Positions 34,501-61,555 of a stretch of DNA of 64,000 bases are shown here, piece after piece. The position numbers and the translations under genes are program-made. The notes under the pieces were generated by a model. The model did not search any database, had not been told where the DNA came from, and saw only the letters and a program-made list of their open reading frames with translations. Within the stretch, counting starts at the first letter, position 1. Each line of letters opens with the position of its first letter. Source of the DNA: Paraburkholderia edwinii (GTDB lineage Bacteria; Pseudomonadota; Gammaproteobacteria; Burkholderiales; Burkholderiaceae); assembly GCF_019428685.1 (NCBI RefSeq), contig NZ_CP080096.1, positions 2,914,001-2,978,000 on the forward strand. The letters are read 5' to 3'.

Positions 34501-34549
34501 GACGGATATCTCCCTGGGGTTACGCGCCCCGATAGTTCGATTGAAGGAA

Positions 34550-34665
34550 ATGGCACGAAGCTGGGTCTGACTCCCGGACCATCGATATGGCCGATTACAG
34601 TGGCGCGACCGCGCCGGGCTTGCACCGGCTTCCGCGCTTCGAGTAGCGCTTATTCTACGCGTTAA
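34550..34665 (-). ncRNA. Cobalamin (AdoCbl) riboswitch
   Basis: In the leader of cbtB on the minus strand are the conserved riboswitch pieces in the right order: a GGAAGCCGGTGCAA core segment (about 34633-34620), then CGCGCCACTGTAA (34607-34595) and a B12-box-like GGAGTCAGACCCAGC (about 34575-34561). The next coding start is 50-60 nt downstream, so vitamin B12 would shut off cbtBA. The borders are approximate. Confidence 0.82.
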
Positions 34666-34745
34666 ACTGTGCGGCCTAATGAAAGCTTTTCGCGAGCCGT
34701 GCGAATGTGCGCAGGCGTGCGGCCCGTGCACTCGAACGACATGAC

Positions 34746-45320: not shown

Positions 45321-46247
45321 TTATCGACGCTTATCGCTGAACTCACCAAGACTTGCCACAAAACGCTGCGCACACTCGAGGCCAAACGCGGTCGGCGCAA
45401 CGCCACGATCGTGCGCCACGTCAAACCCCAATCGCCACGCGGCAATGCGTTTGCCGTAACACGTGAGCGTATCGAGCGATTGCATCACGAACACAATCGC
45501 GGGCAATAGTTGCGCGTACAAGCTTTCCGCCCGTGCGATATCGCCCTCAGCAAACGCCTGATAGATTGCGGCCTGCCAGTCGAACGTATCGGGCGCTACG
45601 ATCAGCCCCGCGCACCCGGCGCGCAGATTATCGACGAGTTCCTGCCCGCCCCTGCCGTTGAATACCGGTAAAGCCTGACCGAGCGCGCGCAGGCGCTCGA
45701 TCGTCGCGCGTATCGTCACCGCCGGCCCTTCACCCTTTAGCCAGCGAAACTGCGGACATTGCGCCGCAAGCGTAACGATCGATTGCGCGGACAAGCCGAC
45801 GCCCAGATACTCGGGCGCATTCTGAATGCCGGCCGGCAGATGTGTGCGACGCATCACCGCCGCGAAGAAGTCGAAATAGAACGACTCGGGCCGGCCGCGC
45901 GTCGCAGGAGGCTGCAAGATCAGGCCCGTGGCGCCGCGCTCCTCCGCATGGTCGGCCAACGCAACCTGCGCATCGACCGTATCGCCGGTAATCGTCACGG
46001 CCAACGGCACGCGCGATGCGATATCGGCCGCCGCCCAATCGATCAGCGAACGTTTTTCATCGAGCGTCAATCGATTGACCTCGGTCGCAAGACCGAGAAT
46101 CACGATGCCGCTCGCGCCCGCTGCAATCGTCGCATCGACCTGGCGGCGCATCGCATCGCGATCGAGACTGTCCTGCGCATCGAAGTACGCATACAGCACA
46201 GGCCACATGCCGGCAGGCGGCGCAGGCAAGTCCGCGATGGCGCTCAT
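45321..46247 (-). CDS. DapA-family 2-keto-3-deoxy sugar-acid dehydratase/aldolase
   Basis: A 308-residue (beta/alpha)8-barrel protein. Family signs are GMWPVLYAYFDAQDSLDRDA, ASGIVILGLATEVNRLTLDE (the GTTGE-like loop), NAPEYLG (Tyr) and the Schiff-base lysine in FRWLKGEGPAV. It sits 12 nt behind an IlvD/Edd sugar-acid dehydratase. The pair is the usual signature of non-phosphorylating sugar pathways, such as L-arabonate to 2-keto-3-deoxy-arabonate to alpha-ketoglutarate semialdehyde. Dehydratase versus aldolase action and the exact sugar cannot be fixed from sequence. Confidence 0.82.
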   Translation of the reverse strand: MSAIADLPAPPAGMWPVLYAYFDAQDSLDRDAMRRQVDATIAAGASGIVILGLATEVNRLTLDEKRSLIDWAAADIASRVPLAVTITGDTVDAQVALADHAEERGATGLILQPPATRGRPESFYFDFFAAVMRRTHLPAGIQNAPEYLGVGLSAQSIVTLAAQCPQFRWLKGEGPAVTIRATIERLRALGQALPVFNGRGGQELVDNLRAGCAGLIVAPDTFDWQAAIYQAFAEGDIARAESLYAQLLPAIVFVMQSLDTLTCYGKRIAAWRLGFDVAHDRGVAPTAFGLECAQRFVASLGEFSDKRR

Positions 46248-46259
46248 GATTTGCGTCGC

Positions 46260-47972
46260 TCAATGCGAATCGCGCGGCACCGGCGCACCGCTCGCGCCGA
46301 CCAGAAAGTCGAGATCGGCGCCCTGATCCGCCTGCAAGACATGCTCGACATAAAGCCGGTAATAGCCGCGCTTCGGCAATTCGGGCGCTTGCCAGGCCGC
46401 ACGCCGGCGTTCGAGTTCCTCGTCGGAGACTTCGAGATGCAGTCTGCGCGCTTTCAGATCGAGCTCGATCATGTCGCCCGTGCGCACGAGCGCGAGCGGC
46501 CCGCCCGCCGCGGCCTCCGGCGACACATGCAGCACCACGGCGCCATACGCGGTGCCGCTCATCCGTCCGTCGGAGATCCGCACCATATCGGTAATGCCTT
46601 TTTGCAGCACCTTTTTCGGTAGCGGCATATTGCCGACTTCCGCGAAGCCCGGATAACCCTTCGGCCCCGCGCCCTTCAGCACCATGACGCAGTTTTCGTC
46701 GATATCGAGCGACTCGTCGTCGACCTTCGCATGCAATTCCTCGACGTTCTCGAATACGACCGCGCGGCCGCGATGCTTGAGCAGCGATTCGGTTGCCGCC
46801 GACGGCTTGATCACCGCGCCGTTCGGTGCGAGATTGCCCTTGAGCACCGCGATGCCCGCATGCGGCTTGAACGGCTTCGCAAACGACGTAATGACCTGCT
46901 CGTTGTAATTCGGCGCCTCGCTGACGTTGTCCCAGATCGTTTTGCCGTTCACAGTCAGCGCATCGCGATGCAACAGTCCCTGTTCGCCGAGTTGCCGCAA
47001 CACGGCAGGCAAGCCGCCCGCGTAATAGAAGTCTTCCATCAGGAATTCGCCGGACGGCTGCAGGTTCACGAGGCACGGCACTTCGGAACCGAGCTCCCAG
47101 TCTTCGAGCGTCAGTTCGACGCCGATGCGTTTTGCGATCGCAAGCAGGTGCACGACCGCATTCGTCGAACCGCCGATCGCCGCATTGGTGCGGATCGCGT
47201 TTTCAAATGCCTGACGTGTCAGAATCTTGTCCATCGTCAGATCGTCGCGGACCATATCGACGATGCGGCGCCCTGCCATATGCGCGAGCACCTGGCGGCG
47301 CGCGTCGACCGCGGGAATTGCCGCATTGTGCGGCAGGCCCATGCCGAGCGATTCGACCATCGAGGCCATCGTCGACGCCGTGCCCATCGTCATGCAGTGG
47401 CCGCGCGAGCGGTTCATGCACGATTCCGCTTCGACGAATTCCTGCTGCGTCATCGTGCCCGCGCGCACTTCCTCGGACATTTGCCAGACGCCGGTGCCCG
47501 AGCCGAGCGTGCCGCCGCGAAACCGGCCGTTGAGCATCGGCCCGCCCGATACGGCCAGCGAGGGCAGATTGCATGACGCGGCGCCCATCAGCAACGCCGG
47601 CGTGGTCTTGTCGCAGCCCACCAGCAGAATCACGCCGTCGATCGGATTGCCGCGAATCGATTCTTCGACGTCCATCGACGCGAGATTACGAAACAGCATC
47701 GCCGTAGGCCGCAAATTCGATTCGCCGAGCGACATCACCGGAAATTCGAGCGGCAGACCGCCCGCTTCACGCACGCCACGCTTGACGTAGTCGGCCAGCT
47801 CGCGGAAATGCGCGTTGCATGGCGTAAGTTCGGACCATGTATTGCAGATGCCGATCACGGGCCGGCCATCGAATTCGTCGTGCGGAATGCCCTGATTCTT
47901 CATCCACGAGCGGTGGATAAAGCCATCTTTGTCGTCCCTGCCGAACCAGCTCTGCGAGCGGAGCTTGCGCAT
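46260..47972 (-). CDS. IlvD/Edd family sugar-acid dehydratase (L-arabonate dehydratase-like)
   Basis: A 570-residue enzyme from ATG 47972 with AGGAGG in front. Cluster cysteines are in ICNTWSELTPCN and LVGCDKTTPALLM. Family motifs MNRSRGHCMTMGTASTMASM and RISDGRMSGTAYGAVVLHV are intact. The length and the ICNTW opening fit the sugar-acid dehydratase subgroup rather than DHAD (IlvD). It dehydrates an aldonic acid to a 2-keto-3-deoxy acid. The DapA-family gene behind it completes the next step. The neighbouring ABC and rhamnose genes are a different unit. Confidence 0.88.
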   Translation of the reverse strand: MRKLRSQSWFGRDDKDGFIHRSWMKNQGIPHDEFDGRPVIGICNTWSELTPCNAHFRELADYVKRGVREAGGLPLEFPVMSLGESNLRPTAMLFRNLASMDVEESIRGNPIDGVILLVGCDKTTPALLMGAASCNLPSLAVSGGPMLNGRFRGGTLGSGTGVWQMSEEVRAGTMTQQEFVEAESCMNRSRGHCMTMGTASTMASMVESLGMGLPHNAAIPAVDARRQVLAHMAGRRIVDMVRDDLTMDKILTRQAFENAIRTNAAIGGSTNAVVHLLAIAKRIGVELTLEDWELGSEVPCLVNLQPSGEFLMEDFYYAGGLPAVLRQLGEQGLLHRDALTVNGKTIWDNVSEAPNYNEQVITSFAKPFKPHAGIAVLKGNLAPNGAVIKPSAATESLLKHRGRAVVFENVEELHAKVDDESLDIDENCVMVLKGAGPKGYPGFAEVGNMPLPKKVLQKGITDMVRISDGRMSGTAYGAVVLHVSPEAAAGGPLALVRTGDMIELDLKARRLHLEVSDEELERRRAAWQAPELPKRGYYRLYVEHVLQADQGADLDFLVGASGAPVPRDSH

Positions 47973-48078
47973 GTCGCCTCCTATGTCTTTTTTGCGTTTG
48001 CCGTCTGTTGCGGCAAGTCCTGAGCTTACCGCATTGGGGTCGCGCCGGCAGCGGCTAGCCTCGCGGCAGGCATTCGCG

Positions 48079-49440
48079 TTATCCCCTACCCGCCGGTGCC
48101 GGTGCCGGTACTTTACCGTCGTCGCGTTGCCCCATGAGTAACGTGCCGATCGCCGCAATATCGTCGACATCGAGCGTCGCGGCCTCGGCTTTCAATTGCA
48201 GCAATGCGACGATCGTGTCGTAACGCGCGGCGCGCAAATCTCGGCGCGCCACGTAAAGCGCATTCAACGTGCGCAGCACGTCGGTGCTGGTCCGGCTGCC
48301 GACCTTGTAGCCCGCTTGCGTGGCGTCCAGCGTATCGCGGGACGCTTCGACAAAATCGATCAGCATGCGGGTCCGCTCGCGCCCCCCTTCGTAGCGCGCG
48401 AAACTGTCGCGCGCGGCCGCTTCGGCATTGCGCTGCGCGGACAGCAGGCCGTTGTGCGCCTTGTCTTCGAGCGCCAGCGACGCCTTGACCTTCGACTGCG
48501 CTTCGCCGCCCGAAAAAATCGGAATGGTCACCGTCAGCATGGCCGTGGTCGTAGTGGTCGGCCTCGCGTAGCCGGCAGCCGCGCCGGCCGGCGTGTAGCT
48601 CGCGGTCACGCCCGCCACCGGATAGTGCGCGGCGCGCGCCTTGGTCACATCGTATTGCGCGATCTGCCAGTCGAGCTGCCGCATCTGCACATCGAAACCA
48701 TGCTCGCGTGCCTGCGTCGCCCAGTCTTCCGGGTCGGCAGGCGCCGCCGCCGGCAGCGGCATTGCGCCACGCAAACGCGCAAGCGGTTCGAAAGGCGCGC
48801 CCGTCAATTGTTCGAGCGCACGGCGCCGCGCTTGCAGACTCACCTGCGCGACGCGCTGCTGCAGGACAATTTCGTCGCGCAGCGTTTGCGCGTCGCGCAA
48901 ATCGATTACGGTTGCCTCGCCGGCGTCGCGCCGGCGCTGCAGTTGGCCGTATTCGACATCGATCGCGGCAAGGTAGTCGTCGATGCGACGCACCTCGTCT
49001 TCAGCCGCGAGTTCGTCGAAATACGCCTTCGCCGCGCGAAGAATCGACGCCTGTTGCGCACCGCCGAATTCGACCGCGCCGCGTGCCTCGACCAGATCCG
49101 CCTGCTGATAGTTGGTCCAGCGGGTCCAGTCGAACAGCGGTTGTGTCAGGCTGACGCTCCAGCCGCTTTGCCAGTAATCGCTGCGTGGAAAGCCTTCCGT
49201 ATCGATGCGGTTATAGCCGCGCCCCCAGCCGCCTGAAAGCTGCGGCAGCAGCGCAGCGCGTGCAATCGGCACCGCCTGCCGCGCAGCGTCATACGAAGCG
49301 CGCGCCTGCGCGACGCTTGCGTCGTGATCGACCGCCTGTTCGACGACCGACAACAAATCCGCCGCATACGTATAGCCGCTGCCGCACAGCATCACCACAA
49401 GCGCACCTGCCGCGCTGATTGCCCGACGTCGATTAACCAT
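48079..49440 (-). CDS. TolC-like outer-membrane channel of the peptide export system
   Basis: A 453-residue protein from ATG 49440. A Sec signal (AISAAGALVVMLCGSGYTYA) precedes a TolC/OEP fold with two similar halves: DLLSVVEQAVDHDASVAQAR ... ALLPQLSGGWGRGYN and HGFDVQMRQLDW ... PVAGVTASYTPAG. Long helices follow (EAAARDSFARYEGGRERTRM), with AGYKVGSRTSTDVL near the end. The start overlaps the ABC transporter stop by 8 bp, so the channel is co-translated with its own exporter. The C terminus has an Ala/Pro repeat (KVPAPAPAGRG). It is the last gene of the peptide-export operon. Confidence 0.93.
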   Translation of the reverse strand: MVNRRRAISAAGALVVMLCGSGYTYAADLLSVVEQAVDHDASVAQARASYDAARQAVPIARAALLPQLSGGWGRGYNRIDTEGFPRSDYWQSGWSVSLTQPLFDWTRWTNYQQADLVEARGAVEFGGAQQASILRAAKAYFDELAAEDEVRRIDDYLAAIDVEYGQLQRRRDAGEATVIDLRDAQTLRDEIVLQQRVAQVSLQARRRALEQLTGAPFEPLARLRGAMPLPAAAPADPEDWATQAREHGFDVQMRQLDWQIAQYDVTKARAAHYPVAGVTASYTPAGAAAGYARPTTTTTAMLTVTIPIFSGGEAQSKVKASLALEDKAHNGLLSAQRNAEAAARDSFARYEGGRERTRMLIDFVEASRDTLDATQAGYKVGSRTSTDVLRTLNALYVARRDLRAARYDTIVALLQLKAEAATLDVDDIAAIGTLLMGQRDDGKVPAPAPAGRG

Positions 49441-51553
49441 GCGTGGGCTCCATTTCAAGGCTCGCACTACTAGACGTGTCGCGCAGCAATGCGCCGTCGT
49501 GCAGCCGATAGCGAATGTCGAATGCCGCGGCGAGTGTCGGATCGTGCGTGATCACGACCACCGTGCAATCGAGTTGCCGCAGCAAGGCGGCGATGTGCCG
49601 GACCGACACCGGGTCGAGATTCGAAGTCGGCTCGTCGAGCAGCAGCAGGCTGCGCCGCTGATAGAGCGCACGCGCGAGCAGCAGCCGCTGCCGTTGGCCA
49701 GCCGAAATATTGGCGATCGTGTCGCTGATCACGGTGCGCGTGCGCATCGGCAGACGCATCACGTCGTCGAGCAAGCCGACCGCGGCAAGCGTCGCATGCA
49801 CCCGCTCTTCATCGATGCTCGCTGCGAACAGCGATACGTTATCGGCAATCGAGCCATGCAGAATCAGATCGCCCTGCCGCATATGCGCGGCGTGGCGACG
49901 AATTTCGTCGACGCTCAGATTGCGCCAGTCGATACCGTTTAGCGCAATATGTCCTTCCTGCAGCGGTTCGGCCGCGGACAGCAGCTTGAATAGCGTCGAT
50001 TTACCGCTTCCCGACGGACCGGCAATCGCAATCTTGTCGCCGCTGCGAATATCGATGCTCGCGTTTTTCAGCACGGGCTGATCGGATACGCCGTAGCGAA
50101 ACGTGACGTCGCGCACTTCGATCTGCCGGAATTCGCGAACCTCCGCTGCTTTCAGACTGTCCGCGAGCGGCGTATAGCGTTCCTCCTCGCAGTCGGCGAT
50201 ATCGGCCACGCGCGCCACAGGCACGCTCAGCATCAGATACGCGAAGCCCGAGTTGATCGCATGTGCGAAACGCTCCGACAACAGCGACTTGTAGATCAGG
50301 AACGAATAGAAAACGCCGGCGGAAACTGCGCCGCTCAGCATCAGGCGCGCGGCGAACCACGTAATTGCAATCGTGTCCGCGTAATTGACAAGCTTCAGGA
50401 TCGCATCGCGCGTGTTCGTCAGGCGTGCGCTCGACAGCGTCGCCACGATGTACTCCTTGTATTTCGTCATAAATAGCGCGGTGCGGCGCGTCTCGCCCTG
50501 CGCAAGCTTAATAAGCGATGCGGCGCGAATCGTCTCGATCAGCGCGTCGTCGCAACGCGCCGAACGTTCGACTACAAGCGCGTGCGTATCCCGCATCCGC
50601 GCGAACATCGCCACCGCAATCGCGACATAAATGGCAAACATCGCCAGCGCAACCAGCGTGAGCCGCCGGCTTTGCATCAGCATCAGGCCGAGCGCCAGCA
50701 CCCCGACGGTCACGTCAATGCACAGCGATACGAAGGTGCGCGTCGCGTACACGCTGATTTCGTCCTGCGCTTTGACGCGCGCGAATACGTCCCCCACGTG
50801 GCGCTTCTCAAACCACGACATCGGATTGCGCAGCAAGTGGCCGAGCAGTCCTTCCGTCGTGTTGATGCGCACGCGTCCGTGCAACAATTCGACGAGCGTC
50901 GTTTCGACATACTGACTCAACGCACCGGCCACGAAAATACTGGCGAACGTAAGCACCAGCACATTCAACAGATTCAGATTGTCCGCGGCGACGACATAGT
51001 CGAGCACGAGGTTGCCGAGATACGGCATGGCCAGAATGGCGAACTGACTGCCGAGCGCGACGAATAGTATCTTTGCCAGGTGTTGCCGCAGCAACGGGTT
51101 CAGTGCCCGCACGCGCGCGAGCGCCGCCGGAATGCGCGACTTCACGCGAATCCGCGGCAGCGCCGGCGTCGGCGCACATTCGAGCAGATAGCCCGAAACG
51201 CTCGCAACGAACGTATCGATCGAGATGCGACGCTTGCCGCTCGCCGGATCGATCACCTGCACATAGCCGCGGCCGCACTTGTCGAACACCACAAAATGCG
51301 CACCGCCGAAATGCAGAATGGAGCCGCGCGCGATCGAATGCAGATCGGCGCCCGCATCGAAACGGTAGGCCTGCACCGCAAGACCGAACTCGACGGCCAC
51401 GTCGTACAGGTCCATCAGCGAAAGGCCATTCGATGAAATCGGCCGGAACACCGACAGCTCGCGCACTTCAGTTGCACGGCCCAGATGCGACAGCACCATG
51501 GCAAGACACGCGTAACCGCATTCGGCCACTTCGTTCTGGTAGATGATGCGCAC
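49433..51553 (-). CDS. ABC exporter with N-terminal C39 peptidase (leader-peptide processing, PCAT type)
   Basis: A 706-residue protein from GTG 51553, two nucleotides behind the adaptor gene stop, with GAGAGG in front. The C39 peptidase domain (1-140) is intact: Gln and Cys in YQNEVAECGYACLAMVLSHL, His in FGGAHFVVFDK, Asp in VQVIDPASGKR. A six-helix ABC transmembrane domain follows. The ATPase has Walker A GPSGSGKST, signature ISAGQRQRLLLAR and Walker B LLLLDEPTSNLDP. Such proteins cut leaders after Gly-Gly and export the core peptide across both membranes with HlyD- and TolC-type partners. Three Gly-Gly leader peptides are encoded upstream in the same unit. Confidence 0.95.
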   Translation of the reverse strand: MRIIYQNEVAECGYACLAMVLSHLGRATEVRELSVFRPISSNGLSLMDLYDVAVEFGLAVQAYRFDAGADLHSIARGSILHFGGAHFVVFDKCGRGYVQVIDPASGKRRISIDTFVASVSGYLLECAPTPALPRIRVKSRIPAALARVRALNPLLRQHLAKILFVALGSQFAILAMPYLGNLVLDYVVAADNLNLLNVLVLTFASIFVAGALSQYVETTLVELLHGRVRINTTEGLLGHLLRNPMSWFEKRHVGDVFARVKAQDEISVYATRTFVSLCIDVTVGVLALGLMLMQSRRLTLVALAMFAIYVAIAVAMFARMRDTHALVVERSARCDDALIETIRAASLIKLAQGETRRTALFMTKYKEYIVATLSSARLTNTRDAILKLVNYADTIAITWFAARLMLSGAVSAGVFYSFLIYKSLLSERFAHAINSGFAYLMLSVPVARVADIADCEEERYTPLADSLKAAEVREFRQIEVRDVTFRYGVSDQPVLKNASIDIRSGDKIAIAGPSGSGKSTLFKLLSAAEPLQEGHIALNGIDWRNLSVDEIRRHAAHMRQGDLILHGSIADNVSLFAASIDEERVHATLAAVGLLDDVMRLPMRTRTVISDTIANISAGQRQRLLLARALYQRRSLLLLDEPTSNLDPVSVRHIAALLRQLDCTVVVITHDPTLAAAFDIRYRLHDGALLRDTSSSASLEMEPTHG

Positions 51554-51555
51554 GT

Positions 51556-52755
51556 TCAACCTCTCAAGACGCGGAAAAGCGGCGCTAGCACCCACTCGGC
51601 AATCGTCCTGCGTTCGACCACGATGCTCGCCATCGCCCGCATGCCCGGCAGAATTTCGAAGTGCTGTCCCTCGAAATCGAAGGTGCGGCCGCGCAGTGTC
51701 GCCCATGCCATATAGTTGTCGCCGGCCGGCTTGCTGGCGTTTCTCGGGTTACCGCCCGGCGTCGCGGGCGCCTCCACCGTCGTATCGGACAACGCATCGA
51801 TTCGCGCTTCGTAGGTGCCGAATTTCGTGTAGGGAAACGCGTCGAACTTGAGCCGCACGGTCTGGCCGATGCGAACGAAGCCGCGGCGGCGCGATGGAAT
51901 CAGCAGCGCGGCGCGCAAACCGCGATCGTCGCCGGTTGCGATGACGAGCGCGACGTCTTCGGGGGCTAGCATGCGGCCCGGCACGAGGCTCGAGAACGTG
52001 ACGATGCCCGCTTTCGGCGCGGAGATCGTCGTATCCTGGCGCGACTGCTCGAAACGCAACTGGATATCCTGTACATCGCGCGCATGGCGCGCGTCGAGTT
52101 CCTTCAGTTGCGCTTCGAGATCGGCACGTGTGTTGCGCGATGCGCCGATCTCGCCGACCAGTTGCGCGCGCCGCGCCACGCTTTGCGCGACACTCGACCT
52201 CGCCTGGTGCACGTCCGCCCTCGCATCTTCGACCCGATTGGCCGTAACAAGCCCGGCAGCCGACTCGAGCCGCTCGAGCTTGCGCGCCGAACCGGCAGCA
52301 AGCGCCTCGGTCTGCGCGATCTGTTCGTCGAGCGCGGGCAGTTCGGCGCGACGGCTCGCCTCCGTTGCTTGCGCGCCGTCCAGTTGCGCGCGCAACTGGA
52401 TCTTGCGCTGCGCCCACTGCGCGTCGGCGGCCGCAAGCTGTTCGTCGCGCATGCGCGCATCGAAATCGAAACGCTGGCTGCCGTCGCTCGCCAAAGAAAG
52501 ATCGCGCTGCAAGCGAAAAAGCGGCGCGCCCTGCGCGATGTGCGCAGCCGGTTGTGCGTAAATCGATGTGACAAGCCCGCTGATGCCGCGAATTTTCACT
52601 TCCGATGAAGACACGATTTCACACGGCACATCCTGCTTGATTTCGATCTGGTGGTTAAACGCAAAGACAATCGCGGCAACGGTCAGCGCCGATGTCGCAT
52701 ACGCGATCCATCGCCATGGGACGTCGCGAAACTGGGGCAGACTCGTTGGATCCAT
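51556..52755 (-). CDS. HlyD/CvaA-type membrane fusion protein
   Basis: A 399-residue adaptor from ATG 52755 (TGAGAAG in front; an ATG at 52791 is also possible). It has an N-terminal cytoplasmic piece and one membrane helix (IAYATSALTVAAIVFAF). The lipoyl/barrel half-motifs follow (EIVSSSEVKIRGISGLVTSI and ISAPKAGIVTFSSLVPGRML), with a long coiled coil between them (about 110-250; ARHARDVQDIQLRFEQS). It links the C39 ABC exporter to the TolC-like channel. A Pro/Asn-rich insert (EAPATPGGNPRNASKPAG) lies near the C terminus. Confidence 0.92.
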   Translation of the reverse strand: MDPTSLPQFRDVPWRWIAYATSALTVAAIVFAFNHQIEIKQDVPCEIVSSSEVKIRGISGLVTSIYAQPAAHIAQGAPLFRLQRDLSLASDGSQRFDFDARMRDEQLAAADAQWAQRKIQLRAQLDGAQATEASRRAELPALDEQIAQTEALAAGSARKLERLESAAGLVTANRVEDARADVHQARSSVAQSVARRAQLVGEIGASRNTRADLEAQLKELDARHARDVQDIQLRFEQSRQDTTISAPKAGIVTFSSLVPGRMLAPEDVALVIATGDDRGLRAALLIPSRRRGFVRIGQTVRLKFDAFPYTKFGTYEARIDALSDTTVEAPATPGGNPRNASKPAGDNYMAWATLRGRTFDFEGQHFEILPGMRAMASIVVERRTIAEWVLAPLFRVLRG

Positions 52756-52848
52756 TCTTCTCAGGCAAAAGCCGGCCACAACAGGCGGCATGTACAGGTA
52801 AAGGGTGAAGCCTCGCGCGCGTTGAGCCGTTGAATCGCTGAGCGTCGG

Positions 52849-53802
52849 TCAGCGCGACGCGGCGAACGCATAGACCGACGGATGACCGGTCACGAGCGAA
52901 CGCGCGAAGTTATCGGTCAACGCGCGCTCGATGCAGTCGGCGACGCGCTGCGGCGCGTCCGAGGCAGCGAGAGCGATCGGATCGCACACCCGGGCGTCGA
53001 ACCGGCCTCGCTCGAAGCGCAGATAGAACGGCAGCAGCCAGGCATCGAGCGGCGCGCCAAGGCGAAACACGCCGCGATGAATGCGCGCGGCACGGCCGAA
53101 CATTTCGACGCCCACTGTCTCCATCGGGTAACGCGCGAACGTATAGGGCGGCACATCCGCAAACAGCACGACCACGCCATGGCGGCGCAGCGACCGGATA
53201 ACGCGCAACCCGAGCGCATTGCGGTTCTCGCCGCTGTACGTGTGCATCACTTCGATACCCGGAATCAGCGCATCGTCGTCGCCGTACTGGTTGCGCGGCA
53301 CGCCGGACACGACGCCGATCGACTCGAGCCCGAGCAGCCTGCGCAATTCGTCGACCACATAGATGTTCGCGTATTGCGACACGTAGTGAAACGGCGCGAC
53401 GATTACCGGCCGGTCAGGGGCCTGCGCCTTCAGTTCGGAAATTCTTCGTGCAATGGCCGCGGCGACCGCGTTCAATTCGGGCCATGCCTCGGCGCGCTTT
53501 AATTGCCGGCCAAAATGCAACCGCTGGTCGATCAGCCTTTCGAGACGCGCACCCGCCAGCACATCGCGCCGCTTCAATGAAGACAGCCGCCAAACGTCAT
53601 GTCCGGCCTCCCAGCGCTCGAGTCCGTTCCAGCGCGCACGCGCATCGACGAGGCCGCTCAGCGTCGAACCGGCGATCGCAAGACGCTCGATCGCAAGCAT
53701 CGATAGACGACACAGGAGGCGCGCACGGATCCGGTAATACGCCGCCGCGATCGGTCGCATCGCTAGCGACAGCAGACGCCGCGGGGAAAGTCGAATGTTC
53801 AT
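52849..53802 (-). CDS. Divergent LPLAT/LpxL-like protein in the peptide-export operon
   Basis: A 317-residue protein from ATG 53802. The C-terminal half resembles lipid A acyltransferases of the LpxL/HtrB family (GVVVLFADVPPYTFARYP, RIHRGVFRLGAPLDAWLLPF and YLRFERGRFDARVCDPI). The N-terminal catalytic histidine region reads PFHYVSQYANIYVVDEL. The family needs His-X4-Asp/Glu, but here the sixth residue is Tyr, so the acidic partner is missing. It might acylate something other than lipid A (for example the exported peptide), bind lipid, or be inactive. It lies 90 nt behind the third peptide gene and about 60 nt before the adaptor gene. Confidence 0.7.
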   Translation of the reverse strand: MNIRLSPRRLLSLAMRPIAAAYYRIRARLLCRLSMLAIERLAIAGSTLSGLVDARARWNGLERWEAGHDVWRLSSLKRRDVLAGARLERLIDQRLHFGRQLKRAEAWPELNAVAAAIARRISELKAQAPDRPVIVAPFHYVSQYANIYVVDELRRLLGLESIGVVSGVPRNQYGDDDALIPGIEVMHTYSGENRNALGLRVIRSLRRHGVVVLFADVPPYTFARYPMETVGVEMFGRAARIHRGVFRLGAPLDAWLLPFYLRFERGRFDARVCDPIALAASDAPQRVADCIERALTDNFARSLVTGHPSVYAFAASR

Positions 53803-53891: not shown

Positions 53892-54041
53892 TCAATGCTT
53901 CGATGGTTGGGACGGCGATGACGACGATGCCGCCACCTGCACCATCACCACCGATGTCGATGAGGCGTAACTGGAAGAGCCTTTATTTGCGCCGCCAGCA
54001 ATGCCGGCCTGAGCCAGCGTGTTGCGATCGATCTTCTGCAT
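53892..54041 (-). CDS. Gly-Gly leader peptide precursor 3 (49 residues)
   Basis: Starts two nucleotides behind the stop of precursor 2. The leader MQKIDRNTLAQAGIAGG is 17 residues, almost the same as the other two. The core begins ANKGSSSYASS (Cys replaced by Ala, Arg by Gly), continues SVVMVQVA and ends in a Ser/Pro-rich tail (SSSSPSQPSKH), so it is 11-12 residues longer than the others. Expected processing is cleavage after Gly17 by the C39 exporter. The function is unknown. It lacks the cysteine of its sisters and may play a different role such as antagonist or carrier. Confidence 0.82.
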   Translation of the reverse strand: MQKIDRNTLAQAGIAGGANKGSSSYASSTSVVMVQVAASSSSPSQPSKH

Positions 54042-54043
54042 AG

Positions 54044-54160
54044 TCAGCCGCCCATCTTCACTACGACCACGGTCGTCACTTTGGCAGCAGAGGAGCTACG
54101 CTTGTTGCAGCCGCCTGAGAGGCGCACCTGAGCCAATGAATTGCGATCGATTTTCTGCAT
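54044..54160 (-). CDS. Gly-Gly leader peptide precursor 2 (38 residues)
   Basis: The start lies two nucleotides behind the stop of precursor 1, so translation is coupled. The leader MQKIDRNSLAQVRLSGG is followed by a core beginning CNKRSSSAAK and ending in valine-rich VVVVKMGG. The last two residues are again Gly-Gly. The predicted mature peptide is 21 residues with an N-terminal Cys and net positive charge (two Lys, one Arg). It is not recognised as a known bacteriocin or signal family. Confidence 0.85.
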   Translation of the reverse strand: MQKIDRNSLAQVRLSGGCNKRSSSAAKVTTVVVVKMGG

Positions 54161-54162
54161 GC

Positions 54163-54276
54163 TTAGCGCACCTGCACGATGACCACCGAAGCCGCGCTAG
54201 CGGAAGACGAGCTACGCTTGTTGCAGCCCCCGGCAACATTCGCTTGAGTCAGTGCATTGCGTTCGATTTTTTGCAT
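54163..54276 (-). CDS. Gly-Gly leader peptide precursor 1 (37 residues)
   Basis: First gene of the operon. ATG 54276 has a good ribosome-binding site (GAGG, eight nucleotides upstream). The leader MQKIERNALTQANVAGG is 17 residues. The core begins CNKRSSSSAS and ends SVVIVQVR (20 residues). The leader has hydrophobic residues at -4, -9 and -14, whereas classical double-glycine leaders have them at -4, -7 and -12; only the -4 and Gly-Gly positions agree. Two near-copies follow directly. Conservation between the three (MQKI, RN, L, Q, GG, NK, SSS, VV) shows they are real, selected genes. Confidence 0.88.
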   Translation of the reverse strand: MQKIERNALTQANVAGGCNKRSSSSASAASVVIVQVR

Positions 54277-54489
54277 TTATTAACCTCAGAATGGATAAGT
54301 ACGACCATCCGGAACCCGTTATTCAAAAGGCGTTCCGGACCGGCTGAAGTATCTGCAATGCGCCGCCGCCAATCTATAGGATTTCTTCGATTCCGCGCTT
54401 CCGATGCGTAAAATATCGTCACTTCGCTGCGCAAGCAGCGATCGAACGCTAGAATCGCCGCGTTATGAAAGCCGCGGTCATGCACCGCT
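54277..54489. promoter_or_regulatory. Divergent control region of the peptide operon and the RcsB-like regulator
   Basis: About 210 bp. An inverted repeat TCCGGAAC (54308-54315) / GTTCCGGA (54332-54339) lies 31-63 nt upstream of the first peptide gene. It may be an operator or an mRNA leader hairpin. TAAAAT (54409-54414) may be a -10 for the regulator gene. No clear -35 box is seen. Confidence 0.5.
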
Positions 54490-55176
54490 ATGAGCATGTG
54501 CGTCCATTCCAATAGTCCACTGATTCGCGAAACCCGGATCGCCATCGCCGACGATCATCCGGTCATTCGTCATGCGGTCGCATCCGCGATCAGCCGCATC
54601 GCAGGCATGCGTATCGCCGCGAGCGTCGCTTCGGGTACCGAACTACTCGATGCGCTGCAAACCGGAGAATGGCATCTGATCGTCACCGATCTCCTGATGT
54701 ATGGCGAGCAGGCCGATCGCGATGGATTGCATCTGGTGACACGCCTCAAGCGGCTCTATCCGGCCATACCGCTTATGGTGTTCACCATGGTTCAGAATCG
54801 CGACATCCTGCATGAACTCGACCAGATGCAGGTTGCCGGCATTGTGTCGAAGTCCGAAAGCATTGGCGTATTCATGGAAGCGGTGCTCGACGTCGCGGTG
54901 CATCGACAGCCGTTCCGGTCGGCCAGCGTGCAGGACATCCTTCGTGGTCCGGATATCGCGACGCTCGATCCTGTCGTACGTTCTTCACTGACGGCGAGGG
55001 AGCTCGAAGTGATCCGCCTTTATGGCGCGGGACTGTCGCTCACGGAAATCGCAGCGCGCCTGAACCGTTCGATCTCCACCGTCGCCACGCAGAAGAGCAA
55101 GGCAATGCGCAAACTCGGCATCGAAACGAACGCGGACATGATCCGCTATGCGCAGGCCAATCGGCTTATTCAATAG
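54490..55176 (+). CDS. RcsB-like response regulator (LuxR-type DNA-binding domain)
   Basis: A 228-residue protein. The receiver domain has the acidic pair in IAIADDHPVIRHAV and the phosphoacceptor Asp in LIVTDLLMYGE. The output helix-turn-helix reads LSLTEIAARLNRSISTVATQ with KSKAMRKLGIETNADM, which follows the RcsB pattern (KLNRSIKTISSQKKSAMMKLG) more than NarL. No sensor kinase or phosphotransfer protein is adjacent. It is divergent from the peptide operon and the likely regulator of it, by position. RcsB-type proteins can work as homodimers or with auxiliary partners. Confidence 0.9.
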   Translation: MSMCVHSNSPLIRETRIAIADDHPVIRHAVASAISRIAGMRIAASVASGTELLDALQTGEWHLIVTDLLMYGEQADRDGLHLVTRLKRLYPAIPLMVFTMVQNRDILHELDQMQVAGIVSKSESIGVFMEAVLDVAVHRQPFRSASVQDILRGPDIATLDPVVRSSLTARELEVIRLYGAGLSLTEIAARLNRSISTVATQKSKAMRKLGIETNADMIRYAQANRLIQ

Positions 55177-55255: not shown

Positions 55256-56287
55256 TCAGAAGTTGAAGTTGTCGATGTTGCTCGCGTCGAACGTGGTCGG
55301 CGGCCCAAGAATGATCTCGCCGTTCGCGCCGATCGTGCGCTTGCCGAGTTTGCCCGCTTCGAACGACTCGCCTTCCTTGCCGCTGATCGTGCCCGATGCG
55401 AGGTTCGCCGCCGCATAGGCCGCGAGATAGCCGAGTTGACCCGGGTCCCACAACTGGAACGCCTTAACCGTGCCGTTCTTCACGAACGCGCGCATCTGGT
55501 TCGGCGTGCCGAGGCCCGTGACCGCGACCTTGCCCTTGCTCGACGACGTCGAGATATAACGCGCGGCCGCCGCGATGCCGACCGAGGTCGGCGCAACGAT
55601 CGCCTTCAGGTTCGGATACGCCTGCAGCAAGCCTTGCGTCTCGACGAACGACTTCTGGTCGTCGTCGTTGCCGTAGGCGATCTTCACGAGCTTCATCTTC
55701 GAATACTCGGGCTTTTTCAGCTCTTCCTGCATCCACTTGATCCACGTGTTCTGATTCGTTGCGTTCGGCGTTGCCGACAGAATCGCGAACTCGCCCTCGC
55801 CGCCCATCAGCTTGGACACGAGCTGGATCTGACCGCGGCCGATACTCTCGGCGTTCGCCTGGTTCACGAATAACTGGCGTCCGTCAGGCGCCGTATCCGA
55901 GTCGAACGTGACGACCTTGATGCCTTGCGACATCGCCTTCTTCAGATACGGCACGAGCGCGTTCGCATCGTTCGCGGCGATCACGATGGCGTTTTGCCGT
56001 TGCGTAATCAACGTGTTGATATACGACACTTGCGACGAAGCGCCCGCGTCCGACGGACCGACCACCTTGCCGTCGCCCTTGAATTCCTTGATCGCGGCCA
56101 TGCCGCCGTCGTCCGCGATCACTTCGTATGGGTTGTTGATCTGCTTCGGGACGAAGGCGATCTTCAAGCCGTTTTTCAGATCGGCCGCGTGTGCGGCGCT
56201 CGCGACGCCGAGCATCGCCGCGCATAGCAGCGCCGCGGATAGTGCGGTTTTCGCCGTGCTTTTCGCATACCGCAGAGGTTTATCCAT
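55256..56287 (-). CDS. rhaS: Rhamnose ABC transporter, periplasmic binding protein
   Basis: A 343-residue protein with a Sec signal (ALSAALLCAAMLGVASAAHA cut before ADLKNG). The type 1 sugar-binding fold follows: IAFVPKQINNPYEVIADDGG, VVGPSDAGASSQVSYINTLI, IAANDANALVPYLKKA and VVTFDSDTAPDGRQLFVNQA. It matches RhaS of the rhamnose importer. It is the last gene of the rhaT-P-Q-S order on the minus strand and ends at a strong terminator. Confidence 0.92.
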   Translation of the reverse strand: MDKPLRYAKSTAKTALSAALLCAAMLGVASAAHAADLKNGLKIAFVPKQINNPYEVIADDGGMAAIKEFKGDGKVVGPSDAGASSQVSYINTLITQRQNAIVIAANDANALVPYLKKAMSQGIKVVTFDSDTAPDGRQLFVNQANAESIGRGQIQLVSKLMGGEGEFAILSATPNATNQNTWIKWMQEELKKPEYSKMKLVKIAYGNDDDQKSFVETQGLLQAYPNLKAIVAPTSVGIAAAARYISTSSSKGKVAVTGLGTPNQMRAFVKNGTVKAFQLWDPGQLGYLAAYAAANLASGTISGKEGESFEAGKLGKRTIGANGEIILGPPTTFDASNIDNFNF

Positions 56288-56372
56288 TTGTCTGTCTCCT
56301 CGCTGGAATTAGCGGACCGTTCCGGTCCGGGTTGTTGATATCGGTCACTACCCTGTCCCTGTCACTGCGTTT

Positions 56373-57398
56373 TTAGTTTGCAGCTTGCGAAGACGCCGAC
56401 TTCGCCAGAAAACGCCGATCGCGCATCGCGCGCCAGCGCGCCACGAGATTCGGAATCAGCACGGAAGCAAGCAGCAATGCACCAGTGACGATGGTCAGCG
56501 TTTCGCTCGATACGTCGTCGAGCGTCAGCGCATTCTTCAATACGCCGATAATCAGCAGCGACAGCAGCACGCCAATCATCGAGCCGCGTCCGCCGAAAAT
56601 GCTGACGCCGCCGAACAGCACCGCCGCGATCACGGAGAGCTCGAACCCTTCTCCGTTGTCGCCACGCGCACTCGTGAAACGCAGCGTATAGACGATGCCG
56701 GCCAGCGCGCTCATCACGCCCGACAGCACGAAGGTGGTAAGCCGAATCTTCGCGACTTCGATGCCCGAGAATGCGGCGGCCGTCGGATTCGCGCCGATCG
56801 CATAGAGGCTGCGGCCAAACGCGGTGGCCTGCAGCAGCACGGTAAACACCACGGCGCACACGATGACGATCACGAACGGCAGCGGAATAAACGTGGCGCC
56901 AAGCGTATCCATGCCGAACGCGGTATAGCCCGGCGGAAAATCCGCCACCGCCTGATCGCCGAGCAGCACATACGCAAGACCGCGAAACAGCGCGAGCGTG
57001 CCGATGGTGACCGCCAGCGAAGGCAGATTCAGCTTCACGATCACGAGCCCGTTCAACAAGCCCGCCAGCATGCCGAACAGCAGCACGAGCACGATAACCA
57101 CGGGCATCGGCAAGCCCATATGCCATAGCACGCCCATCAACGCGCTCGACGCGCCGAGCACGGACGCCACGGAAAGGTCGATTTCGGCGGCCACGATAAT
57201 CAGCGTCATCGGCAGCGCCATCAATGCAATCTCGGTCAGATCGGCGAGCACGTTCGACAGGTTCGCACCGGTCAGAAACACCGGCGACAGCACGCGGCCG
57301 AGCACCAGCGACAGCGCGAGCACGATCACGAGCAGCGTCTCCCAGCGCAGCGGCGTTTGCCGCTTGCGCGTAAGCAGCGCGGAATCGGGTTTAGCCAT
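56373..57398 (-). CDS. rhaQ: Rhamnose ABC transporter permease
   Basis: A 341-residue BPD_transp_2 permease. It has about ten membrane helices and the cytoplasmic EAA-like loop ATAFGRSLYAIGANPTAAAF. VAAEIDLSVASVLGASSALM is typical for sugar permeases. Its start overlaps the rhaP stop by 8 bp. It pairs with RhaP as the membrane part of the importer. Confidence 0.9.
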   Translation of the reverse strand: MAKPDSALLTRKRQTPLRWETLLVIVLALSLVLGRVLSPVFLTGANLSNVLADLTEIALMALPMTLIIVAAEIDLSVASVLGASSALMGVLWHMGLPMPVVIVLVLLFGMLAGLLNGLVIVKLNLPSLAVTIGTLALFRGLAYVLLGDQAVADFPPGYTAFGMDTLGATFIPLPFVIVIVCAVVFTVLLQATAFGRSLYAIGANPTAAAFSGIEVAKIRLTTFVLSGVMSALAGIVYTLRFTSARGDNGEGFELSVIAAVLFGGVSIFGGRGSMIGVLLSLLIIGVLKNALTLDDVSSETLTIVTGALLLASVLIPNLVARWRAMRDRRFLAKSASSQAAN

Positions 57399-58461
57399 GA
57401 TCGCGTTTCCTCATCATGCGTTTGGCGACGGAGCGAGCCAGCAAGGTATCGACGGTGATCGCAGCGACGATCAGCGCGCCTTCGATGGCTTGCTCCCAGA
57501 ACGGCGAAACGTGCAGCACGACCAGCGCGATGCTGATCACGCCAAGCACAAGCGCACCGAGCGTCGCGCCGAGTATCGTGCCGACGCCGCCCGTAATCGC
57601 GACACTGCCGACCACCGCGGCCGCGACGACCTGCAATTCGATGCCTTTCGCCGTGCTGGCGTCGACGGTACCGAAACGCGCAAGCCACAACGCACCGGCA
57701 AAGCCTGCAATCGCGCCCGACAGCAGAAAACCCGACATCACGCGCCGCTCGACGTTGACGCCCGCCAGCCGCGCCGCTTCCGGATTTGAGCCGATTGCGT
57801 AATGCTCGCGGCCGCCGCGGAAATGCTTCAGATAAACGCCGAGCGCGATCAATACCGCGGCCGCAATCAGCGCAAGCGTCGGAATACCGAACGCCGTGCC
57901 GGTCGCGAGCCGCGAGAACGCGTCGGGCAGACTCGTTGCGTTGATTTGTCCGCCGTGCACCCATGCGTAGTCGGCGCCGCGGAAAATATAGAGCGTCGAT
58001 AGCGTCGCCACGAGCGAAGGTACGCGTCCGACCGCGACGAGCAGCGCGTTGATGCCGCCCGCAACAAGTCCGATCACAAGGCCCGCTGCGAGCGCGACGA
58101 GCACCGGCATCTGCGGGAACGCAACATACAAACTACCGACCGCATACGCGCTGATGCCGACCGTCGATCCGACCGACAGATCGATATGGCGCATCAGAAT
58201 CACAACGGTCATCCCCGCGGTCAGCAAGCTGATGATCGAAACATTCAGCAGGACGTCCCGCAGGTTTTGCAGATTCAGGAATTGCGGCCGCGCGAGCGCG
58301 GTGCCGACGATCAGCAACAGCAGTACGACAAAGAGCGTCGTTTCGCGGCTCTTCGCCAGCGTGCCGATCACGCTGCCCGCGCGCGGTGCGGCGCGCTTTT
58401 CGCCTGACGGTTGCACTGGCGCGGCGTGAGTCGATCCATGAGTCGATGAATGGCGCATCAT
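57391..58461 (-). CDS. rhaP: Rhamnose ABC transporter permease
   Basis: A 356-residue permease. The start ATG 58461 forms an ATGA overlap with the rhaT stop. It has [40 protein letters not shown] and the loop [21 protein letters not shown] Pro/Arg-rich N-terminal 30 residues precede the first helix. Confidence 0.9.
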
Positions 58462-59987
58462 GCGGCATGCCCCCATTGAGCGGCGCCCTGTCCGAGCGCC
58501 GCGCTCATGATCCGTTCCTCGCTCGCGTCGGCACGCGTGATTTCGGCGCTGATACGTCCTTCGTGCATCACGAGCACGCGGTCGGCCATGCCGAGCACTT
58601 CGGGCAGCTCGCTCGAAATCATCAGCACGGCCATGCCGTTCTGCACGAGTTCCGATAGCGCGCTATACACTTCGGCCTTCGCGCCGACGTCGATGCCGCG
58701 CGTCGGTTCGTCGATGATCAGCACGTTCGGGTTCGTCGCGAGCCATTTGCCGAGCACGACTTTCTGCTGGTTACCGCCGGAAAGCGTACCTGCCGCTGCG
58801 CTCGGGTCGTCGGCTTTCAGGCGCAGCCGCTTGCCCCAATGCGCCGCGAGTTGTGTCTCGCTGCGCGTGGAGATGAGGCCGTGCCGAACGAGGCGGCCCA
58901 GCACCGTCAGCGACGCATTGCGCGCGATGCTCAATTCGAGCGCAAGCCCTTGCTGACGCCGATCCTCCGGCACGAGCGCGAGCCCTGCGCGCACGGCGGC
59001 GGCCGGACGTCCTGACGCAAGCCGTTTGCCGCCGAGCAGCACCTCGCCTGAGTCGTATGCGTCGATACCGAAAATCGCGCGCGCGACTTCGCTGCGTCCC
59101 GCGCCGACAAGACCCGCCAGCGCGACGATTTCGCCCGCGCGCACTTCGAAGGAAATGTCCTTGAATACGCCGATGCGCGTCAGGTTGCGCACGGCAAGCC
59201 GCACTTCACCAGGCGTCACTTCGGCTTTCGGGTAGAACGTTTCGAGGTCGCGGCCAACCATCTTCGCGACGATCTGGTCGGTGGTCAGCGCCGAGGTCGG
59301 TGCGTCGAATACTTTTGCGCCGTCGCGCATGATCGTGACGTGCTGAGTGAGCGCGAACACTTCGTCGAGCCGGTGCGTGATGAACAGGATCGCGACATCG
59401 CGTTCGCGCAGCTTGCGCACGATCGCAAAGAGCCGCTCGACTTCGGGCAACGACAAGGCGGCGGTCGGCTCGTCCATGATCAGCACGCTCGCGTTAAGCG
59501 AGAGCGCCTTCGCGATTTCGATAACCTGCTGGTCGGCAATCGAAAGCCCGCGCACGAGCTGGTCGGCGCGCAGATCGACGCCGAGCGACGCCAGCAGGCC
59601 GTTCACTTCGTCGCGCATCGCGTCGTATTGAATGCGGCCGATGCGGTCCACGGGCTGCCGGCCCATATAGATGTTCTCCGCAATCGATAGATCGAAGAAC
59701 AGCGTCGGTTCCTGATAGATGACGGCCAGGCCCGCGTCGCGCGCTTCCGCCGGCGTCGCGAAGTGACGCGGCGTGCCGTCGATATAAAGCTCGCCCGTGT
59801 CGGGCTGATGCACGCCCGCGAGAATCTTGACGAGCGTCGACTTGCCGGCGCCGTTCTCGCCGAGCAACGCATGCACTTCTCCAGGCCATAAGACGAGTCC
59901 GCCGTTGGCGAGCGCGCGAACGCGCCCGAACGATTTGCTCGCGTGTTTCAGTTCCAGCCTCGGCGCCGCGTCGGTGTCATGCTGCAC
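58458..59987 (-). CDS. rhaT: Rhamnose ABC transporter ATPase (two nucleotide-binding domains)
   Basis: A 509-residue sugar-importer ATPase. The N-terminal domain is canonical ([47 protein letters not shown]). The C-terminal domain has a degenerate P-loop ([14 protein letters not shown]) but a normal signature [16 protein letters not shown] and [16 protein letters not shown], as usual for this family. It is the first of four transporter genes with overlapping starts. The name collides with the E. coli proton symporter RhaT; here the ABC ATPase is meant. Confidence 0.92.
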
Positions 59988-60092
59988 TGCGTGTCTCCTC
60001 CAGCAAGCGGCATCGTGGGTGTGCCGCGTTATTACGGTTGCCTCAGGGTACTTTTCAGGGCTCCGTCAAAGCGTCGCGTCGAAGCGTTTGTG

Positions 60093-60986
60093 TCAAATGC
60101 GGTAAACGCGCCCCGCATTGCGCACGAACAGCGCCGCTTTCTCGGCATCGCTCGCGCCGCCGACAATCGCCGCATAGGCGTTCCACAAATCCGCATACGA
60201 GCCGAACTGCCGGTCGACCGGGAAATTCGACGCGAACATCGCACGCTCGACGCCGAACGTATCGATCGTTTCCAGCACATAAGGCCGCAAGCTCTCGACC
60301 GTCCAACGGTGATCGAACATTGCGAGCCCGCTGATCTTCACCGCGACGTTCGCGCAGCCCGCAAGCTTGCGCATCCCTTCACGCCAGGCGCGATAGCCCG
60401 CGACGCTATCGCGGTCGACAAACATACCCGTGTGATTGACGATGAACTGCGTATCCGCATGTTCGCGCGCAAGCGCGGCCGCCTCTTCCATTTGCGACGG
60501 ATACAGCTGCATATCGAACGACATCCCATGCTGACGCAGCCGCGCGAAATTCGCGCGCCACGTCGCATCGCGCAACAGATGACGGCCGATATAGTCGTAC
60601 AGCCTGTTCTCGTGCACGTTCAGGATCTGCCGTACGCCGCGCGTGTTCGCGAATGCGGCGTGTCCTTCGAGTACCTGCGCCGCATTGGGTGCGGAAAGAT
60701 CGACGCCCGCGACAATGCCGTTCGGCATGCGGCGCGATGAAGGTTCGTCGGCCACCTGCTGCAACCAACGCGTTTCTTCGACGGGGTCCGACGGATCGTG
60801 ATTCGCCTCGACATGCACCACTTTCAGGACTTCGACGGGCTGCGCATCCTTAAGCAGGTCGCTGAGCAGATAGTCATGCTGCAAATCGCGCGCGTCGCCG
60901 ACAAACGATATGCCCGGGTTCGCCAGCCACGGATAGTGATGCGTCTTCAGGTCCCACAGATGAATGTGCGGGTCGACCACTTGCAT
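60093..60986 (-). CDS. Amidohydrolase family lactonase (probable L-rhamnono-lactonase)
   Basis: A 297-residue amidohydrolase_2 barrel protein. Metal-site features are VDPHIHLWDL at the N terminus, QFIVNHTGMFVDRD and KISGLAMF, with the late FASNFPVDRQFGSYADLWNA. Close relatives hydrolyse L-fucono- or L-rhamnono-lactones. Neighbours (mutarotase upstream, importer downstream, SDR and rhamnonate dehydratase further up) place it at the lactone hydrolysis step. It lies 105 nt before rhaT. Confidence 0.85.
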   Translation of the reverse strand: MQVVDPHIHLWDLKTHHYPWLANPGISFVGDARDLQHDYLLSDLLKDAQPVEVLKVVHVEANHDPSDPVEETRWLQQVADEPSSRRMPNGIVAGVDLSAPNAAQVLEGHAAFANTRGVRQILNVHENRLYDYIGRHLLRDATWRANFARLRQHGMSFDMQLYPSQMEEAAALAREHADTQFIVNHTGMFVDRDSVAGYRAWREGMRKLAGCANVAVKISGLAMFDHRWTVESLRPYVLETIDTFGVERAMFASNFPVDRQFGSYADLWNAYAAIVGGASDAEKAALFVRNAGRVYRI

Positions 60987-61020
60987 GGAAGTCCTTTATC
61001 TGTTGAGCGTCGTCAGTCCA

Positions 61021-61356
61021 TCAGGTTTGTAGCGCATCAACACCCGGCAATCGGAATACGCGCGAAAGCGGCTGCTGAAGCGGTGTGTGATCCGTGGCGG
61101 TCTGCATGAGGTCCGCCATGTAATCCCACCATTTGCGCATCACAGCGAGATGCGGCAGTTCGTCCATCGTGTGATCGGCGGTGCGCGTGAGCACCGCGAA
61201 CAGATGATGCGTTGCGTCATCGTAGTAGATCGAATAATCGCGCACGCCGGCTTGATGCAATGCATCAACCAGCTCCGGCCAGATCTCGTTGTGGCGCCGT
61301 TCGTATTCGTCGCGCATGCCGGGGTTCAGCACCATCCGGAAAGCGATTGTCTCCAT
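61021..61356 (-). CDS. rhaM: L-rhamnose mutarotase
   Basis: A 111-residue protein from ATG 61356, which has GGAG six nucleotides upstream (ATG 61368 is a less well spaced alternative). It has the RhaM/RhaU fold sequence IAFRMVLNPGMRDEYERRHN, YSIYYDDATHHLFAVL and MRKWWDYMADLM. It interconverts alpha- and beta-L-rhamnose. It leads the lactonase-transporter operon, 35 nt before the lactonase gene. Confidence 0.93.
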   Translation of the reverse strand: METIAFRMVLNPGMRDEYERRHNEIWPELVDALHQAGVRDYSIYYDDATHHLFAVLTRTADHTMDELPHLAVMRKWWDYMADLMQTATDHTPLQQPLSRVFRLPGVDALQT

Positions 61357-61555
61357 GCCGCGCTCCATGTCCTCGCTTGATGTCCCGCTAACTCCCGCCG
61401 TGCTTTTCGTGCCGGGCTAAGGCTTTCGGGTGCCGTTCGCCGCGGTTGACGGGCGCTTTCGCGGTCGCGCGTATGCAACGACTATAATTCGGGCGTCGAT
61501 AGCCTCTCAATCCGTTGTTCGGATAGGGCGATACCGAAACCGAATCGCACACCTC

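Follow-up and report, generated by a model that had tools for sequence, protein, structure and literature searches.

In a 64,000-nucleotide stretch of the Paraburkholderia edwinii genome (hereafter the window; contig NZ_CP080096.1, positions 2,914,001 to 2,978,000), three tandem genes for very short Gly-Gly leader peptides head an operon that also encodes an acyltransferase-fold protein (AT) and a C39-type exporter. Sequence comparison identifies this arrangement, one to four Gly-Gly micropeptides followed by AT, HlyD, C39 ATP-binding cassette (ABC) and TolC genes, as a conserved cassette of Paraburkholderia and Caballeronia. On balance, we lean slightly toward reading the cassette as a pathway for secreted ribosomal lipopeptides. 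With a little less assurance, just short of an even chance, we propose that these form a new class, widespread among Burkholderiaceae of plants and soil: a PatA/LpxM-fold enzyme originating in lipid synthesis, and not a GNAT, would acylate the CCK or xxK head of a Gly-Gly precursor of fewer than 80 residues, and one cassette may serve several peptides, including one at the distant site of a lost ancestral cassette.

The first-pass annotation of this DNA had reported three minus-strand frames of 37, 38 and 49 codons, each separated by 2 nt, and we recovered all three. Peptide 1 (37 codons; 54163..54276) has the leader MQKIERNALTQANVAGG and the core CNKRSSSSASAASVVIVQVR, with GAGG lying 8-11 nt before its ATG. 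Peptide 2 (38 codons; 54044..54160; core CNKRSSSAAKVTTVVVVKMGG) starts 2 nt past the peptide 1 stop, a spacing that suggests translational coupling, and peptide 3 (49 codons; 53892..54041; core ANKGSSSYASSTSVVMVQVAASSSSPSQPSKH) starts 2 nt past the stop of peptide 2. The leader, described earlier as nearly invariant, indeed reads MQKI-[DE]-RN-x-L-x-Q-(4)-GG in all three, with the double glycine at residues 16-17, and the cores begin CNKRSSS, CNKRSSS and ANKGSSS, as had been noted. Between the window's own copies, the ratio of nonsynonymous to synonymous changes (pN/pS), based on few sites in each case, was 0.21-0.35 for the leader and 0.50-0.59 for the core. Pooled over five species, the CNK type gave 0.17 (leader) and 0.38 (core) and the ANKG type 0.20 and 0.35, rough values that come from few sites with synonymous changes near saturation. 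The three frames are real and under purifying selection. Cut after Gly-Gly and otherwise unmodified, their products have calculated monoisotopic masses of 2048.08, 2121.14 and 3152.50, to which a single C14:0 or C16:0 acyl group would add 210.198 or 238.230.

A profile of the three peptides showed that other genomes carry this leader too (best E 7.3e-22), with matches in 47 of 118 relatives at E <= 0.1; matches at E <= 1e-3 fell only in the window's genus. Among the 40 regions surrounding these matches (L034-L073), 36 carried AT and exporter genes and four held lone peptides. With a profile of 22 peptides, 67 of 144 genus genomes matched (E <= 1e-3), bearing out conservation of the family in related strains; AT was likewise present in 67 of 144 (E <= 1e-20), and reading both lists showed these to be the same 67. 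This recurrence, each time with AT, together with pN/pS values far under 1 and the ribosome-binding-like sequence seen by eye before many starts, leaves a negligible probability that the frames are chance or decayed sequence without translation, for which small size is the sole argument apart from broken AT and exporter copies in some symbiont genomes; we rejected chance frames on the recurrence across the genus and on pN/pS. All eight AT-negative genus genomes that we checked still have C39 proteins, so the leader family tracks this cassette and not C39 transporters generally.

Beyond the genus, AT was found in 47 of 398 genomes from 4 of 25 genera in a family-wide draw, and a class-wide draw of 369 yielded it solely in the genome of the window. 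Rare cassette copies occur in Cupriavidus, Rhodanobacter and Herbaspirillum. The named loci belong to Paraburkholderia, Caballeronia, and leaf-nodule and other symbionts, with a single locus each from Rhodanobacter and Herbaspirillum; they largely duplicate the genomes of the loci known by genome handle. P. xenovorans LB400 is among the strains with a cassette. Single database records labelled Trinickia, Variovorax, Cupriavidus, Lysobacter and Pseudomonas were among the matches listed, and a search of a plasmid collection returned one Caballeronia record, in a stretch without annotated features. Broken copies of AT and the exporter were seen in symbiont genomes (L049/L131, L129/L193, L134/L194), with a peptide frame still readable beside the broken genes in L049/L131 and L134/L194. 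A 222-aa AT relative labelled Pseudomonas aeruginosa (P0146) lies on a 536-kb contig and may reflect contamination or transfer.

The operon reads, on the minus strand, peptides, AT, HlyD, C39 ABC, TolC, with gaps of 89 and 57 nt and then overlapping frames. The peptides had been placed directly upstream of the exporter, which is not so: the AT gene (52849..53802; 317 aa from the ATG at 53802, in a frame that opens at TTG 53820) stands between. It is followed by an HlyD-type membrane fusion protein (51556..52791; Pfam HlyD_3, E 1e-10; NCBIfam TIGR01843, E 3.1e-25, under the curated cut-off), a C39 peptidase-containing ABC exporter (49433..51559; Peptidase_C39, ABC_membrane and ABC_tran domains by Pfam) and a TolC-type outer-membrane channel (48079..49467; NCBIfam TIGR01844, 252.6 bits, above the cut-off). 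The exporter's start is uncertain, its frame being open to 51706, and its C39 domain spans about 51164-51553. This leader peptidase is intact, as had been stated (PF03412, E 1.6e-22; Q, C, H and D motifs present), and across loci the C39 motifs were found in 80 of 88 by pattern and in three more by reading the sequence, the other five having broken or truncated frames. Leader cleavage and export of the peptides thus appear very likely from the sequences. The earlier proposal, that a C39 exporter is dedicated to these Gly-Gly leader peptides, was right and is strengthened by conservation within the genus; as a description it was incomplete, having passed over the AT gene, a near-invariant lysine at core position +3 and a further family peptide on the genome's other large contig (L034).

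To describe the family we compiled 116 peptides at 86 loci. The source was a set of 87 cassette loci in whole genomes, of which a profile built on the window's own peptides had located 36 and AT 50, the window being the last. The table pattern required Arg/Pro, then Leu/Ile, then GG, with no requirement for Lys +3. It removed look-alike frames and lost a genuine family member, the GNK-headed fourth peptide of L177; the L040 peptide was added by hand, and the Rhodanobacter and Herbaspirillum loci lie outside the table. Precursors were 33-74 aa long. The leader had 17 residues in 114 of 116 and by pattern always ended in GG; Arg -12 and Leu -9 occurred in 114/114, an invariance due in part to the pattern's demand for Arg/Pro and Leu/Ile at those positions. 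The core was variable except at its head, where Lys +3 was present in 107 of 116 peptides, Cys +1 in 86 and Cys +2 in 67. Lys +3 was equally prominent in the 50 AT-found loci, chosen without any peptide profile (67 of 71 peptides). Single-peptide loci had a CCK head in 60 of 64 cases, and 21 of 22 loci with at least two peptides held a Cys-headed and a non-Cys peptide together. Many peptides of these multi-peptide loci run from Ser/Thr-rich into Val/Ile/Thr-rich sequence. In the largest sets, the Caballeronia-type loci L106/L177 and L182, four different peptides precede one AT and exporter.

The peptides had not been recognised as a described family, and this holds against the databases: at E <= 0.1, no Pfam or NCBIfam family matched more than one of 22 members. 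We rejected as chance the matches of single peptides to NifU, SCIFF, listeriolysin S and other families; the SCIFF match (E 6e-4) involved one Cys-rich member of the 22. Database labels on cassette parts are "hypothetical protein" and "lauroyltransferase", and a literature search confined largely to titles and abstract openings, with subscription papers mostly outside it, returned no description of the cassette or the peptides. The expectation that such short genes would escape gene calling fails for some of them, relatives of which are present in public protein sets, as hypothetical or uncharacterised where named.

In NCBIfam, AT matches NF005919, a phosphatidylinositol mannoside acyltransferase, at E 1.1e-6, though its 27.9 bits fall far short of the cut-off of 209. 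The structure model of AT has the LPLAT fold and matches PatA and LpxM, with predicted catalytic residues H138 and D215 (numbered without the start Met). The motif around the histidine is HX4Y in 47/47 aligned sequences and not HX4D/E. The Pfam family Lip_A_acyltrans (PF03279) matched neither AT nor the Rhodanobacter AT; it does match the genome's own LpxL, and we rejected the idea that AT is the genome's sole lipid A acyltransferase on that ground. The modelled fold, the linkage of AT to the peptides and the conserved Lys/Cys head together lead us to infer that AT acylates the peptides.

The pathway we envisage begins with translationally coupled micro-genes that, from their sequences, would yield precursors of 33-74 residues bearing a Gly-Gly leader of about 17. 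AT, presumably at the inner face of the membrane, would transfer a fatty acyl group from acyl carrier protein (acyl-ACP) or coenzyme A (acyl-CoA) to the core head, as its modelled fold suggests, most likely onto the side-chain amine of Lys +3 or alternatively onto Cys +1/+2. The C39 domain would then cleave after Gly-Gly and the ABC-HlyD-TolC conduit export the product, a step consistent with the intact motifs and established transporter biology. Outside, the lipid-headed peptide, with its Ser/Thr/Val- or Pro/Ala-rich tail, might act at membranes or at the producer's own surface. The proximity of the cassette to fimbrial genes in many relatives, and to an RcsB-like regulator in the window (below), hints at a role in surface growth or competition. 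If correct, this would be a very compact lipopeptide route, of one short gene, one acyltransferase and one exporter, in nearly half of the 144 genus genomes; its enzyme would be a simple means of attaching fatty acids to peptides, and the route could account for the recurrence of the cassette beside fimbrial genes.

Several observations weigh against acylation by AT. The shared fold with PatA and LpxM, itself modelled, does not establish the function of AT; a Tyr occupies the Asp/Glu position of the HX4D/E motif, and D215 was equated with the PatA/LpxL acid by eye. Pfam gave nothing better than E 0.2 for AT, an AT profile showed no similarity to the genome's own LpxL, and it found nothing among PDB sequences up to E 10. 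On the peptide side, Lys +3 is missing from nine of 116: three carry Lys at +2, two read CCGxDK, and four are Ser-rich with no Lys nearby, each of these beside a CCK peptide. Two Herbaspirillum peptides, outside the 116, have their earliest Lys at +5 and +6, and we recognised no Gly-Gly peptide in Rhodanobacter. Heads that begin with Cys could instead function in disulfide formation, in metal binding or in simple chemistry of an N-terminal Cys.

Three further accounts compete with the lipopeptide reading. If the product kills neighbours, self-protection is without explanation, as the operon lacks an immunity gene. The peptides could be unmodified and bacteriocin-like, with AT altering the producer's envelope lipids to protect it; the gaps and overlaps of the window's operon leave no room for a classical immunity gene, and the fold of AT is that of lipid acyltransferases. 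Such an account leaves unexplained the near-invariant Lys +3 beside a variable core, and we consider it unlikely. Somewhat less probable again is a bacteriocin made of several peptides, a Cys-headed one and a non-Cys one acting jointly, acylated or not. The pairing of both head types in 21 of 22 multi-peptide loci fits this, as does the placement of such loci in three separate groups on the AT tree, but a single peptide is present in 64 of 86 loci.

The peptides might instead be secreted signals that the neighbouring RcsB-like regulator, or a kinase encoded elsewhere, detects. In the window's clade this divergent regulator has stayed next to the cassette, and blocks of the intergenic region are conserved; however, in the stretches fetched a relative of it accompanies only 10 of 89 loci, inspection by eye showed no kinase gene beside the regulator in the window, and as many as four peptides at one locus, with cores that differ, would make a poor pheromone. 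We hold signalling to be improbable.

Several known systems resemble the proposed lipopeptide pathway in part. HlyC acylates lysines of a toxin in the cytoplasm before its export through an ABC-HlyD-TolC machinery, which resembles our proposal; its targets are large RTX proteins, which carry a C-terminal signal and undergo no leader cleavage, and HlyC is an acyltransferase unrelated to AT. AT is like PatA and LpxL/LpxM in its predicted fold and in a conserved His and acidic residue. The acceptors of LpxL/LpxM are glycolipids, as are those of PatA, whereas AT sits in a peptide-export operon. The catalytic acid of PatA lies outside the HX4D/E position; AT has neither that motif's acid nor a Pfam match.

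In the portions of the reports available, selidamides and nostolysamides arise from ribosomal precursors whose core is fatty-acylated on a Lys or Orn side chain, Lys1 in nostolysamides (PMC13060382, PMC9505594), and the window's product would likewise be acylated near the core start. Their acyltransferase as described there is a GNAT, whereas AT has the PatA/LpxM fold, and none of the eight proteins scanned was a GNAT-family N-acyltransferase. As far as these portions describe them, they also involve lanthionine synthetases and NHLP or Nif11 leaders; in the window's operon there is no such synthetase, and the leader is 17 residues long. With class II microcins the cassette has in common a Gly-Gly precursor, a C39 ABC transporter, a membrane fusion protein and TolC (PMC9746304). 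The verified microcin precursors in the part of that source available have 75-120 aa and an immunity protein, compared with 37, 38 and 49 aa in the window and 33-74 aa in the family; the window's operon holds no immunity gene, which an unlinked gene or the longer gaps of relatives could supply, and the cassette here differs from the microcins as described in having an acyltransferase gene. Lipidated ribosomally synthesized and post-translationally modified peptides are already known; the pairing of a PatA/LpxM-fold acyltransferase with Gly-Gly micropeptides appears to be a new combination, and there is a reasonable likelihood that it forms a separate class.

We then assigned the 89 loci to neighbourhood types, using labels of our own in which the chromosome-1 label overrode the fimbrial one and flanks differed in length. 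Thirty lie at a "chromosome-1 site", marked by a small secreted-repeat gene pair and/or a Gph-like gene and corresponding to contig C1 in the window's genome. Another 28 have chaperone-usher fimbrial genes upstream on the same strand (six with the usher gene alone detected), and the Herbaspirillum locus has a divergent fimbrial gene. Nine, including the window, have only the RcsB-like regulator (relatives counted at >40% identity), and 21 have none of these neighbours within the stretch fetched. In many relatives the cassette follows a same-strand chaperone-usher operon with an MrkD-like tip (for instance L110:833-6024, L109, L107, L121, L084, L085, L092, L191). We rejected an SCPU-type assignment for these pilus genes: Pfam, run on one full operon and two tip proteins, returned ordinary Fimbrial/PapC-usher genes with MrkD-like tips. 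On a tree of 85 AT sequences, rows shorter than 250 aa being left out, the chromosome-1 loci formed one group (99/92) and the regulator-only loci two groups among the fimbria-linked ones, which tentatively suggests that the window's cassette type derives from a fimbria-linked ancestor.

In four of five genomes of the window's clade, a lone family peptide is found at the chromosome-1 site (L034, L058, L060, L073). That of the window's genome (L034: 9001-9126, on contig C1 outside the window) has the leader MQKIDRNQL.. and lies between the secreted-repeat genes and the Gph-like gene. Most simply, the sequences suggest that the cassette was lost there and the peptide kept as an apparent relic. 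Among the lone peptides the leader is conserved (pN/pS 0.12) and the core drifting (0.77). Six more C39-domain matches occur in this genome, three within transporter-size frames and one stronger than the window's, which weakens the case that the lone peptides need the cassette exporter.

The divergent RcsB-like LuxR-type response regulator of the window (54490..55176, plus strand; best match the RcsB model, E 7.1e-33, under the cut-off) probably regulates the cassette. The intergenic region between it and peptide 1 (54277..54489) contains blocks conserved in five species, such as AAAGTGACGATATTTTACG. Cassette and regulator sit inside what by eye is an apparent sugar or sugar-acid catabolic cluster (45321-48170 and 55256-61368), with dehydratase, aldolase-like, sugar ABC transporter, amidohydrolase and mutarotase-like genes. 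Elsewhere in the window, a cobalamin riboswitch was detected on the minus strand at 34542-34686 (34.4 bits against a cut-off of 31.5).
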